From Sphingobacteriaceae bacterium (GTDB taxonomy: Bacteria > Bacteroidota > Bacteroidia > Sphingobacteriales > Sphingobacteriaceae): a stretch of DNA of 64,000 bases. The stretch covers positions 558,001 through 622,000 of the forward strand of contig JAQSWM010000001.1 in the NCBI GenBank assembly GCA_029266635.1. The letters are read 5' to 3'. Below are positions 29,285 through 32,999 of this stretch, piece by piece. The translations under genes were made by a program, and so were the position numbers. The notes under the pieces are model-generated. The model was not told where the DNA came from, did not search any database, and saw only the letters and a program-made list of their open reading frames with translations. The first letter of the stretch is position 1, and each line of letters starts with the position of its first letter.

Positions 29285-29324
29285 AAAGCTTATCTCGGAA
29301 AGGCCGCAGGAGTACTGACTTTCA

Positions 29325-29421
29325 CTTATCTTTTCCGCAACTAGCGGATAGAATGTAGCACCTTGTAAGCACAGGTTGCTAAGACTTCGCAGGGTCTAAT
29401 CCCTCCGTCTTTCTCAATAAG
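29325..29421 (-). promoter_or_regulatory. SAM-I (S-box) riboswitch upstream of metH-metF
   Basis: Read on the minus strand, the element opens with CTTATTGAGAAAGACGGAGG and closes with GATAAG, giving the P1 helix. In between lie the S-box hallmarks GGAGGGA, GACCC, the TGCGAAGTC segment, AGCAACCTG and AAGGTGCTAC. S-box RNAs bind S-adenosylmethionine and usually turn off methionine genes. It precedes metH by about 130 bases, in the right orientation. The expression platform is less clear: no strong terminator with a T-run is obvious, so control may act on translation or through the downstream repeat hairpin. Confidence 0.93.
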
Positions 29422-29483
29422 CAGCGCAAAGATGCGAAATTAAGAGGAGAAGTGCAAACGGGAGCGACAACACGAATTAGCAC

Positions 29484-29538: not shown

Positions 29539-30270
29539 TTATTTTCTGCTTCCGAATAGACGAAGCAGCATCAGGAACATATTGATAAAATCAAGATAAA
29601 GCCTTAAAGCTCCCATTACCGCCATCTTTTGCAGCGGAGCTTCTCCATACTCTTCGCCGGAGCCAATGCGCTTTAATTTCTGAACATCGTAAGCAGTTAA
29701 GCCTACAAATACCGCAACTCCCACAAAGCTGATGATGTAATCTAATTGGCCACTGCCGAGGAACATATTGATAACCGAGGCAATTATTATTCCGACCAGG
29801 AACATCATTAAGATTGAGCCAAAATTTGTGAGATCAACGTTTGTGCGATAGCCCGCAACTGCCATTACGCCAAAAAGTGCGCTGGCCGACAGAAAGCAAG
29901 TAAACACAGACGACGCTGTATAAATTAACATGATAAAGCTCAAGCTCATGCCGGTCACCGCCGAATACGCTACAAAAATAATTGCCAGTGCCGAATAGGA
30001 TAATTTATTAAAGCCGAATGACATAGTTAACACAAAAATCAACGGTGCAATCATTGTAACTGTCCCGAGGGTAGTTGGCTGGAGCGTTTCAGGATTCCGC
30101 AACATTGCTAACAACTCATTGTTCTGTGAAAACAGATACGCAAAAGTTGCGGATAAGCCCAGCGCTACGAACATCCAAAGAAAAACACTTCCCATGAATT
30201 TCTTGGTGTTGCTTGCCTCATCGTCTAATTGAATGACGTTTTTGTAAGAATTATCAAAATTAGTCTCCAT
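29539..30270 (-). CDS. Bax inhibitor-1 / YccA family membrane protein
   Basis: 243 residues with seven hydrophobic segments. The family signature is visible: KFMGSVFLWMFVALGLSAT near residue 24, AVTGMSLSFIMLIYT near 104, and TAYDVQKLKRIGSGEEYGE near 187, whose Asp belongs to the pH-sensitive di-aspartyl switch in this family. Relatives leak calcium or interact with the FtsH protease. The gene is followed by its own terminator. Upstream, the intergenic space holds the relic of a duplicated gene end (30312-30380). Confidence 0.9.
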   Translation of the reverse strand: METNFDNSYKNVIQLDDEASNTKKFMGSVFLWMFVALGLSATFAYLFSQNNELLAMLRNPETLQPTTLGTVTMIAPLIFVLTMSFGFNKLSYSALAIIFVAYSAVTGMSLSFIMLIYTASSVFTCFLSASALFGVMAVAGYRTNVDLTNFGSILMMFLVGIIIASVINMFLGSGQLDYIISFVGVAVFVGLTAYDVQKLKRIGSGEEYGEAPLQKMAVMGALRLYLDFINMFLMLLRLFGSRK

Positions 30271-30311: not shown

Positions 30312-30380
30312 TTAACTAAGCCGCTTTACAAGTTGTTTTTCCACTTTTTTGAATAGTTGGATCGGCTTGAGTTTTCGCCA
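30312..30380 (-). pseudogene. Relic: last 23 codons of a lost paralogue of the 188-residue gene
   Basis: In frame on the minus strand this stretch encodes 22 residues plus stop that match the C terminus of the intact gene at 31417-31983 at 20 of 22 positions (the differences are Asn to Lys and Glu to Lys). Of 69 bases 55 are identical, and most of the 14 changes are silent. Upstream of 30380 the match quickly decays with indels. It therefore looks like the end of a formerly functional second copy that has been deleted or overwritten. Confidence 0.75.
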
Positions 30381-30515
30381 AACACAGTATCATTGAATGA
30401 CAGTGACTGACAAATGTTGACAAGATTATGATTCAATCTACGTACGTTTTTTGATCAGAGTAACCGGTAGTCAAAGGAGTTATGAAGTAGGGTGTGAATT
30501 GCCTGTAAACCATTA

Positions 30516-31415
30516 TCAACTAAAAACATCAACATCTATATTGATCAAAAAATTTGCCGGGTTAGGAGAGCCTGTATCAAACGGCGTCCATCGATAATTA
30601 TATCCAGCCTTTGATTTAATCCATGAGTAGCTTTTGCTCATGGATTCTTTAAAACCAATTCCCGGCAAATTTAAATTATTCCAATACGTTGGGGTAATCC
30701 CTGGCTTAAGCTTTCCTTCGGCTAAGTATTGTTCCTTAGGTAGTGTTTCCATTGCAACAAACAAACCATCATCTTCAAAAACTAAATTATATTTGCTCAA
30801 ATCTACTGTGAACCAACTGTTATTTTTGTCAGCATGTACAAGGATATTTTGGTTGAGTAAATCTTCTCCCGGCATGTTGCTGCTTGGATCTTTTTTATAA
30901 ATTCTTATCCTAAAAAGACCGCGATAGTCGCCTCCAGGGGGTTGTTTAATAAAAAAACTGGCTGATTTAATGTACCCAGTGATTTTCATTGTATTCTCAA
31001 TGAAAAGGGCATATTGCACGTTAGGCCTTGTATGAAAAGATCCTACTAAATTCCGGCTCAAGTTTCCTAGTTTTAAGCTTTTCAGCACTCCATTTGATTG
31101 GTCTATGGCTACCTCTTTTAGTTCGATGAACAATCTCTTGAGTATAACTTTATTAACATCTCTCAATTCTTTATAAGTTACCTTCTTAGAAACAAAGCCA
31201 CCACAAGAAAACAACAAACTATCAGTTAAATTTTCAGGCTTGGCCAATTGAAATTTCCCTTGCAAATCCGAAAACCCTACTACAATATTATTAATGCTTA
31301 TAGTTGCATAGGATACAGGAATAGTATTTTCGGAAATTACATATCCTTCAATAACCTGCGATTTGGCTACCGAAATATGCAAGAAGCACACAAAAAAAAA
31401 TAATAATTTTCTCAT
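30516..31415 (-). CDS. Secreted protein with carboxypeptidase-regulatory-like domain, unknown function
   Basis: 299 residues. A signal peptide ends near AKSQ (residue 20). Residues about 22-95 are a carboxypeptidase-regulatory-like beta-sandwich (VIEGYVISENTIPVSYATI), the same kind of domain found at the N terminus of TonB receptors, but here no plug or barrel follows. Residues 100-299 are beta-rich without a motif I recognise. The gene is AT-rich compared with its surroundings. It starts 1 base after the stop of the 188-residue gene, and a relic of that gene's end lies beyond its own 3' end, so it sits between two copies of the same sequence. Confidence 0.6.
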   Translation of the reverse strand: MRKLLFFFVCFLHISVAKSQVIEGYVISENTIPVSYATISINNIVVGFSDLQGKFQLAKPENLTDSLLFSCGGFVSKKVTYKELRDVNKVILKRLFIELKEVAIDQSNGVLKSLKLGNLSRNLVGSFHTRPNVQYALFIENTMKITGYIKSASFFIKQPPGGDYRGLFRIRIYKKDPSSNMPGEDLLNQNILVHADKNNSWFTVDLSKYNLVFEDDGLFVAMETLPKEQYLAEGKLKPGITPTYWNNLNLPGIGFKESMSKSYSWIKSKAGYNYRWTPFDTGSPNPANFLINIDVDVFS

Positions 31416-31416
31416 A

Positions 31417-31983
31417 TTAACTTAACCTTTTTACAAGTTGCTCCTCTACTTTCTTGAATAACTGTATAGGCTTGAGATTTCGCCAGATTGTCTCGTCCAA
31501 TTGCCCACCAAAATTTATGTAGTAATCAATATTGTTGCCTTTAAACTCGTCAATCACATGTTCGCGGAAGTTGATGCCCGCAATCCAGCCATCCTCCACA
31601 TCCTGAAACCACTCCTCATAATAACAATCATCCGAGGAATGAAAGTTAAGCACGTTCTCTCCTATTAAAATAAACTTCGTGATGCCTTCATCAATCATCA
31701 GCTCAATTATCTCGCGTTTAAGCAGCATAATGTCGTTGTTAATAGCGTCATTCCACTCGCCGATAAATTCAATGATTGAATAGCGTCGGTCATAATCGGC
31801 AAACAACACTTTCATGTAAAGCGTGTTGGAGCCAAAAGAATCCCATTGAGGATGAATGTAGTAGTTATAAACCTGCTTATCGAATTGAAATTCGCTGTAT
31901 TGGGTTTCGTAGAATGGAGATCGCTGGTCTTCTGCTGCGATATAATCATCACGCCAGCGGTAATATGGTTCAATTTCGTGCAT
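31417..31983 (-). CDS. Conserved hypothetical protein, 188 residues
   Basis: An acidic, aromatic-rich soluble protein with no signal peptide or membrane segment. Visible landmarks are YYRWRDDYIAAEDQRSPFYE at the N terminus, FIGEWNDAINNDIMLLKREI in the middle, and a C-terminal WRNLKPIQLFKKVEEQLVKR helix. I do not recognise the family. The paralogue relic at 30312-30380 shows mainly silent differences in its C-terminal helix, so that helix was under selection. The start ATG fits the first conserved-looking residues. It is followed by the secreted-protein gene with 1 base between them. Confidence 0.65.
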   Translation of the reverse strand: MHEIEPYYRWRDDYIAAEDQRSPFYETQYSEFQFDKQVYNYYIHPQWDSFGSNTLYMKVLFADYDRRYSIIEFIGEWNDAINNDIMLLKREIIELMIDEGITKFILIGENVLNFHSSDDCYYEEWFQDVEDGWIAGINFREHVIDEFKGNNIDYYINFGGQLDETIWRNLKPIQLFKKVEEQLVKRLS

Positions 31984-32047: not shown

Positions 32048-32869
32048 TCAATCCATCTGCACACCTTTATAATTCTCTACAGCCTTGCGTACGCTACCGT
32101 ATTGGTCGAGCAGCTTTTGGGCAGACTCTGCATCAAGCCCTGTGGCTTTAACAACCATATCAACGGCACGCCCCACCAATTTATGATTGGTAAGCTGCAT
32201 GTCGAACATTTTATTTCCTTTCACTCTGCCAAGCTGAATCATCACAGCCGTGCTCACCATGTTCAGCACCAGTTTTTGAGCAGTTCCAGATTTCATTCTT
32301 GTAGAACCGGTCACAAACTCGGGGCCAACCACCACCTCCACCGGGAACTGAGCCTGAGCCGCCACGGGGCTGCCTTCGTTGCATACAATACAGCCCGTCA
32401 CCAATCCCATTTCGTTTGCTTTTTTCAGCCCACCGATTACGTAGGGTGTTGTGCCCGAAGCAGCAAGCCCAACCAATACATCTTTCTTAGTAATATCATA
32501 CTCCTGCAAGTCCGCCCACGCCTGTTCCTCATCGTCTTCCGCAAATTCAACCGCTCTGCGTATCGCAGTATCGCCGCCGGCAATAATCCCGATTACCCAA
32601 TCAAACGGGACACCGTATGTGGGTGGGCATTCTGACGCATCAACCACTCCGAGGCGGCCGCTTGTCCCCGCTCCAATATAAAAAAGCCGCCCGCCAGCTT
32701 TCATCTTCTTTACAACAGCCTCGGCCAATTTCTTTATAGCGGGAATGGACTTTTCTACCGCAAATGCAACCGTCTTATCCTCGTTATTTATGCCTCTGAG
32801 CAGTTCGTCCAGGGACATTTGCTCCAAATTATCGTATGCCGAATCCTGCTCTGTAGTTCTCTTCATCAT
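32048..32869 (-). CDS. murQ: N-acetylmuramic acid 6-phosphate etherase
   Basis: 273 residues from the ATG at 32869. Cleaves the lactyl ether of MurNAc-6-phosphate to GlcNAc-6-phosphate in peptidoglycan recycling. The SIS-fold motifs are clear: FYIGAGTSGRLGVVDASECPP in two halves, the catalytic Glu in VEFAEDDEEQAW, GLAASGTTPYV, and GPEFVTGSTRMKSGTAQK. The frame is open ten codons further (to 32899), but family proteins begin near MKRTTEQDS, so I chose the internal start; 32866 is equally possible. It is divergent from the S41 protease gene. No kinase or transporter for MurNAc is adjacent. Confidence 0.95.
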   Translation of the reverse strand: MMKRTTEQDSAYDNLEQMSLDELLRGINNEDKTVAFAVEKSIPAIKKLAEAVVKKMKAGGRLFYIGAGTSGRLGVVDASECPPTYGVPFDWVIGIIAGGDTAIRRAVEFAEDDEEQAWADLQEYDITKKDVLVGLAASGTTPYVIGGLKKANEMGLVTGCIVCNEGSPVAAQAQFPVEVVVGPEFVTGSTRMKSGTAQKLVLNMVSTAVMIQLGRVKGNKMFDMQLTNHKLVGRAVDMVVKATGLDAESAQKLLDQYGSVRKAVENYKGVQMD

Positions 32870-32999
32870 TAAAAATTTCCCTTCGTGTAAAATTGGCAAT
32901 AATCTTTTATTCTGAAACTATGTTAATTGTAAAATATATTACGTTAACACTTGTAAAAACCGCATCAAAACCAAAGCGTTTAATTATTTTAGCGGTGGA

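Follow-up and report, generated by a model that had tools for sequence, protein, structure and literature searches.

In Escherichia coli, the element e14 inserted in icd duplicates 165 bp with 12 base changes and 2 residue changes, as described in PMC11148124, and in the T6SS clusters and Rhs loci of Vibrio the 3′ parts are displaced by foreign modules, a process for which homology-facilitated illegitimate recombination (HFIR) is proposed in PMC5361080. HFIR of linear DNA, homologous at one end and illegitimate at the other, is described from laboratory crosses in PMC3240628. The locus presented here, that of the protein we call D188, shares with e14/icd the doubling of the 3′ end of a housekeeping gene with mostly silent differences between the two copies (PMC11148124, in its account of icd), and it is against these systems that its anatomy can best be read.

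On the minus strand of the window (the whole stretch of 64,000 nucleotides that was analyzed), the order is as follows: murQ (32048-32899), which also lies upstream of D188 in relatives; the intact D188 gene (31417-31983), whose product of 188 aa has no Pfam or NCBIfam match at cut-off; S299 (30516-31415), the cargo gene of an islet, encoding 299 aa with a start that by eye resembles that of secreted proteins and with a CarboxypepD_reg-like domain; a non-coding stretch of 135 bases (30381-30515) that separates the S299 stop from the relic; the relic of D188 itself (30312-30380); 41 bases; the gene for the membrane protein BI-1 (Bax1-I; 29539-30270), the native downstream neighbor of D188 in most relatives; and, after it, a gene that we take to be metH, its translation resembling the protein of the relatives. 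Ahead of the latter there is a SAM riboswitch (RF00162, 72.4 bits; 29323-29423, minus strand). S299 starts one base past the D188 stop, and the order D188, S299, relic confirms that the intact gene and the relic flank the 299-residue gene, as the initial annotation of this DNA had held.

The relic consists of 22 codons of D188 plus a stop, has no start codon, and is closed in its upstream frame. On the minus strand it translates to WRKLKPIQLFKKVEKQLVKRLS followed by the stop, and the present 3′ end of the intact gene (31417-31485, minus strand) to WRNLKPIQLFKKVEEQLVKRLS, likewise followed by the stop; the two are alike, without gaps, at 55 of 69 bases and 20 of 22 residues, and the coordinates, the strand and both of these counts agree with those first reported. 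Differences affect 12 of the 23 codons, silently in 10, and the 14 differing bases lie at third (10) or first (4) positions; a Nei-Gojobori count gives 11 silent and 3 non-silent differences, which upholds the earlier remark that most of them are silent. The similarity starts at a TGG codon and stops one base past the stop (70 bases, 80%), and outside this block identity falls at once to background on both sides, with nothing D188-like remaining directly upstream of the relic. A D188 search of the organism's own genome recovered the relic independently (E = 8e-6), and no D188 piece besides it and the gene.

A match by chance is excluded, because the relic is unique of its kind among the 767 ORF segments (464 kb) of its own genome. 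When the last 22 residues of each ORF segment of at least 100 aa were scanned for matches at 12 or more of the 22, D188 and the relic were the sole pair in the window together with 80 loci of relatives (940 segments, 705 kb); in the own genome the other matches were complete tandem paralogues and one glycine-rich repeat, and no second gene end was found repeated there as a bare relic.

Within the family, D188 is strongly conserved and nearly universal, found in 396 of 399 genomes (the own included), and it is a single-copy protein: a search of the other 398 family genomes brought up no second copy, full-length or tail. Second matches at E≤0.1 in 10 of these were considered as extra copies and rejected, being weak (E 0.007-0.099), outside the tail, and in several cases carrying stops. 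For the surroundings of the gene, the set comprised loci with a D188 match at E<1e-30; the organisms that a GTDB scan names belong for the most part to Mucilaginibacter, Pedobacter and Daejeonella (Sphingobacteriaceae). Relatives whose D188 genes are identical entered the set a single time, which left 133 unique genes with the own among them, and two own-genome loci that represent the same place as L001 (L031 and L053) were left out of the relatives' counts. BI-1 follows next on the same strand in 82 of the 132 unique non-own genes, all from other genera, while 46 have no BI-1 in the flank examined and four have flanks too short; the gap from the D188 stop to BI-1 has a median of 57 nt and is at most 200 nt in 78 of the 81 measurable cases. 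The synteny comparison that had been proposed as a check on a lost paralogue therefore shows, in these other genera, D188 directly before BI-1 and without the islet. The corresponding distance at the present locus is 1146 nt, and that from the relic stop to the start of BI-1 is 41 nt. No repeat of the D188 tail at 10 or more of 22 residues was seen in the relatives' D188 loci; one match of 9/22, at chance level, lies upstream at L074. In a Mucilaginibacter MAG (L111), another gene, in the opposite orientation, occupies the gap between D188 and BI-1 (1183 bases), with no repeat of the D188 end.

The divergence between the two ends tells something of their history. Silent sites are saturated (pS 0.81, beyond correction) and non-silent ones little changed (pN 0.057), and in a neutral simulation 7 changes falling in the relic left at most two residue changes in just 2% of runs, and 10 changes in 0.1%. 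These values bear out the earlier claim that the lost copy was once under selection, and they support the conclusion that the source copy of the relic was under selection at the protein level until recently. Since a freely decaying relic would, according to the simulation, soon have changed residues, almost all of the divergence arose while both ends were coding, and the stranding is comparatively recent. Comparison with 131 distinct tails of relatives (those with a placeable WR anchor) showed that, at silent sites, 15 of them lie no farther from the intact end than the relic does, and 26 no farther from the relic than the intact end does; thus, the two ends differ from each other about as different genera do. 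By total bases, 75 of the 131 relatives are nearer the intact end and 37 nearer the relic, by third positions 38 and 66, respectively, the repeat being too short for either end to be assigned to a donor lineage; GC3 is equal in both.

What lies between the two ends appears, from its composition and distribution, to be a foreign segment with a single gene. The GC content of S299 is 35.0%, compared with a mean of 45.7% (sd 2.4%) for the larger ORFs of its own genome, which places it at the 0.4th percentile of the 244 own-genome ORF segments of at least 250 aa; the 135-base stretch has a GC content of 36%, no unusual fold, and no second copy in the genome. S299 is distributed in patches: at E≤1e-20 it occurs in 12 of the 399 genomes of the family, and at E≤1e-30 in 6 of 400 genomes sampled from the order and 2 of 395 sampled from the class (the own counted in each), and its nearest homologue, in another genus, is 41% identical. 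On plasmids there is one match of 27%, and in viral contigs none. No other locus examined has S299 beside D188, nor was a donor carrying D188 and then S299 found among the relatives' loci or in the family, order and class samples. Around the S299 homologues of 11 other genomes, no gene-end repeat resembling the D188/relic pair was seen, the repeats there involving S299-like genes, further long or tandem copies, and antisense frames of these. The nearest S299 homologue (L191, genome G107) has ahead of it the tail of a further S299-like gene, with 17 of the last 22 residues alike, and the two seem to form a tandem pair that the end of the contig has truncated.

We infer which of the two D188 ends is the newcomer, and by what route it came, from the layout of the locus. 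Because the relic is 41 bases from BI-1, where the median in relatives is 57, it sits at the position of the native D188 end, so that S299 and the present D188 end are most simply the intruder. In other words, the relic is probably the native 3′ end of D188, displaced by a foreign, diverged D188 end together with S299. The flanking genes are adjacent and without an insert in the relatives (other genera only), and the insert is of foreign make-up, in its GC content as in the patchiness of S299, both of which are to be expected of a displaced end. The foreign segment would have contained S299, the 135 bases and, ahead of them, no fewer than the last 22 codons and the stop of a diverged D188; it would have been joined into D188 in such a way that the reading frame ran on into the incoming end, and the native end would have been left 1.1 kb downstream by BI-1, severed from its gene. 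Among all the routes considered HFIR is the most likely, somewhat short of an even chance when every reading is taken into account, and would have consisted of a homologous exchange within D188 and an illegitimate join just ahead of the 22nd-last native codon. An S299 start a single base past the D188 stop would suit a donor with the two genes side by side, but none such was found in the loci and samples examined; this lack, the missing recombinase in the islet and the equal GC3 of the two ends weigh against the displacement. The body of D188, for its part, shows no sign of foreign origin in trees of the 78 genes, among the 133, for which D188, murQ and BI-1 are all present in the data: the own D188 groups with the Daejeonella side with weak support (74) and the own murQ with the same side with firm support (99), a placement beside Mucilaginibacter is not rejected for either gene (p-AU 0.65 for D188 and 0.24 for murQ), and the two genes are without conflict.

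A second route, which by analogy with the entry of e14 into icd may be considered, although only tentatively, is recombination at a short site in the gene end. The islet would then be what is left of an element, or a small relative of one, that uses a copy of the 3′ end of D188 as its attachment site; integration of the element would rebuild the gene, and the old end would stay as the other attachment site. This possibility draws on the exact resumption of frame and stop with differences that are mostly silent, on the short ungapped repeat on either side of a foreign islet, and on the parallel with e14 itself. However, there is no recombinase gene in the 1.1-kb islet, which between its repeats holds just S299 and the 135 non-coding bases; no like repeat was found at D188 in other loci, nor other insertions with the same border; a D188-like end was found neither in viral contigs, searched with a degenerate pattern, nor in phage records, where D188 itself is also absent; and the S299 start, so close to the D188 stop, is likewise unfavorable. 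The lack of a recombinase, of islets with the same border, and of phage or viral D188 ends speaks mildly against this kind of insertion.

Somewhat less likely again is that a second D188 copy, a paralogue or a whole xenologue, once stood after S299 and lost its first 166 codons by deletion. The silent-site divergence does imply that both ends come from genes under selection, and this history, including that of a xenologue trimmed later, predicts an anatomy identical to the present one; but it needs an extra deletion ending inside the gene, no D188-like remains lie directly ahead of the relic, and the 399 family genomes, the own relic aside, yield no further match to the whole gene or its tail. 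Thus, of what would be expected from the remnant of a tandem duplicate, purifying selection on the copy is found, whereas the relatives searched show no second copy and nothing of the gene is left beyond the tail. Moreover, because the tails have diverged about as much as those of different genera, a paralogue would require a long coexistence of two copies, which is nowhere seen. The original description of the segment as the relic of a lost paralogue is therefore supported in that the copy was under selection, but not in making it a paralogue of this lineage, given the absence of any second copy and the native position of the relic, and it is not the best reading.

Very improbable, finally, is the retention of the segment as a regulatory site, for instance as part of the BI-1 promoter: a promoter-like pair, TTG-N-TATATT, does overlap the relic end and the 41-base leader, and boxes of the Bacteroidetes consensus TAnnTTTG are enriched from the D188 tail to BI-1 (in 20 of 77 relatives, against 4.3 expected), mostly in the gap, with three starting within the tail; but relaxed promoter pairs starting in the tail show no enrichment (7, against 8.8 expected), strict ones are very few there (2, against 0.2), the last 22 codons are of average conservation at silent sites (in the 106 genes with a length of exactly 188 codons, 69% of windows are as conserved or more), and no fold is better than those of shuffled sequences. 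A conserved regulatory site was the finding named at the outset as contrary to a lost gene, and with neither extra silent-site conservation nor a clear enrichment of promoters in the tail, a regulatory role for the whole 69-base segment is unlikely. It would be equally bold to suppose that the D188 3′ end is a favored landing site for small integrase-free islets in unsampled Sphingobacteriaceae, each islet bringing its own synonymous gene end.

Returning to the displacement of the native end by the islet, the D188/S299 scar is a new instance of an already known kind of scar of bacterial DNA exchange. With e14 and icd, in the terms in which PMC11148124 describes the icdC relic, it would also share a newcomer that rebuilds the gene and an old end stranded past the insert; unlike e14, which is a cryptic prophage with an integrase, the insert here is of 1.1 kb, with one gene, no recombinase and a repeat of 69 bases. 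With the Vibrio T6SS and Rhs loci, as PMC5361080 presents them, it would share a foreign module with homology at one border and an illegitimate join at the other, and the native 3′ part moved downstream; there, however, the module is one of effector and immunity with variable 3′ domains, whereas here an unrelated cargo gene accompanies the end of a conserved gene, with a protein sequence almost equal to that of the old end. In the crosses of PMC3240628 HFIR was shown experimentally, while at D188 it is read from the scar alone. In summary, a short gene end with silent differences does not by itself prove a lost paralogue, as it may be the host's own end, displaced by a borrowed one, and beside the larger systems mentioned the D188/S299 locus offers a clean and small example in which a single accessory gene has probably been added between conserved genes.
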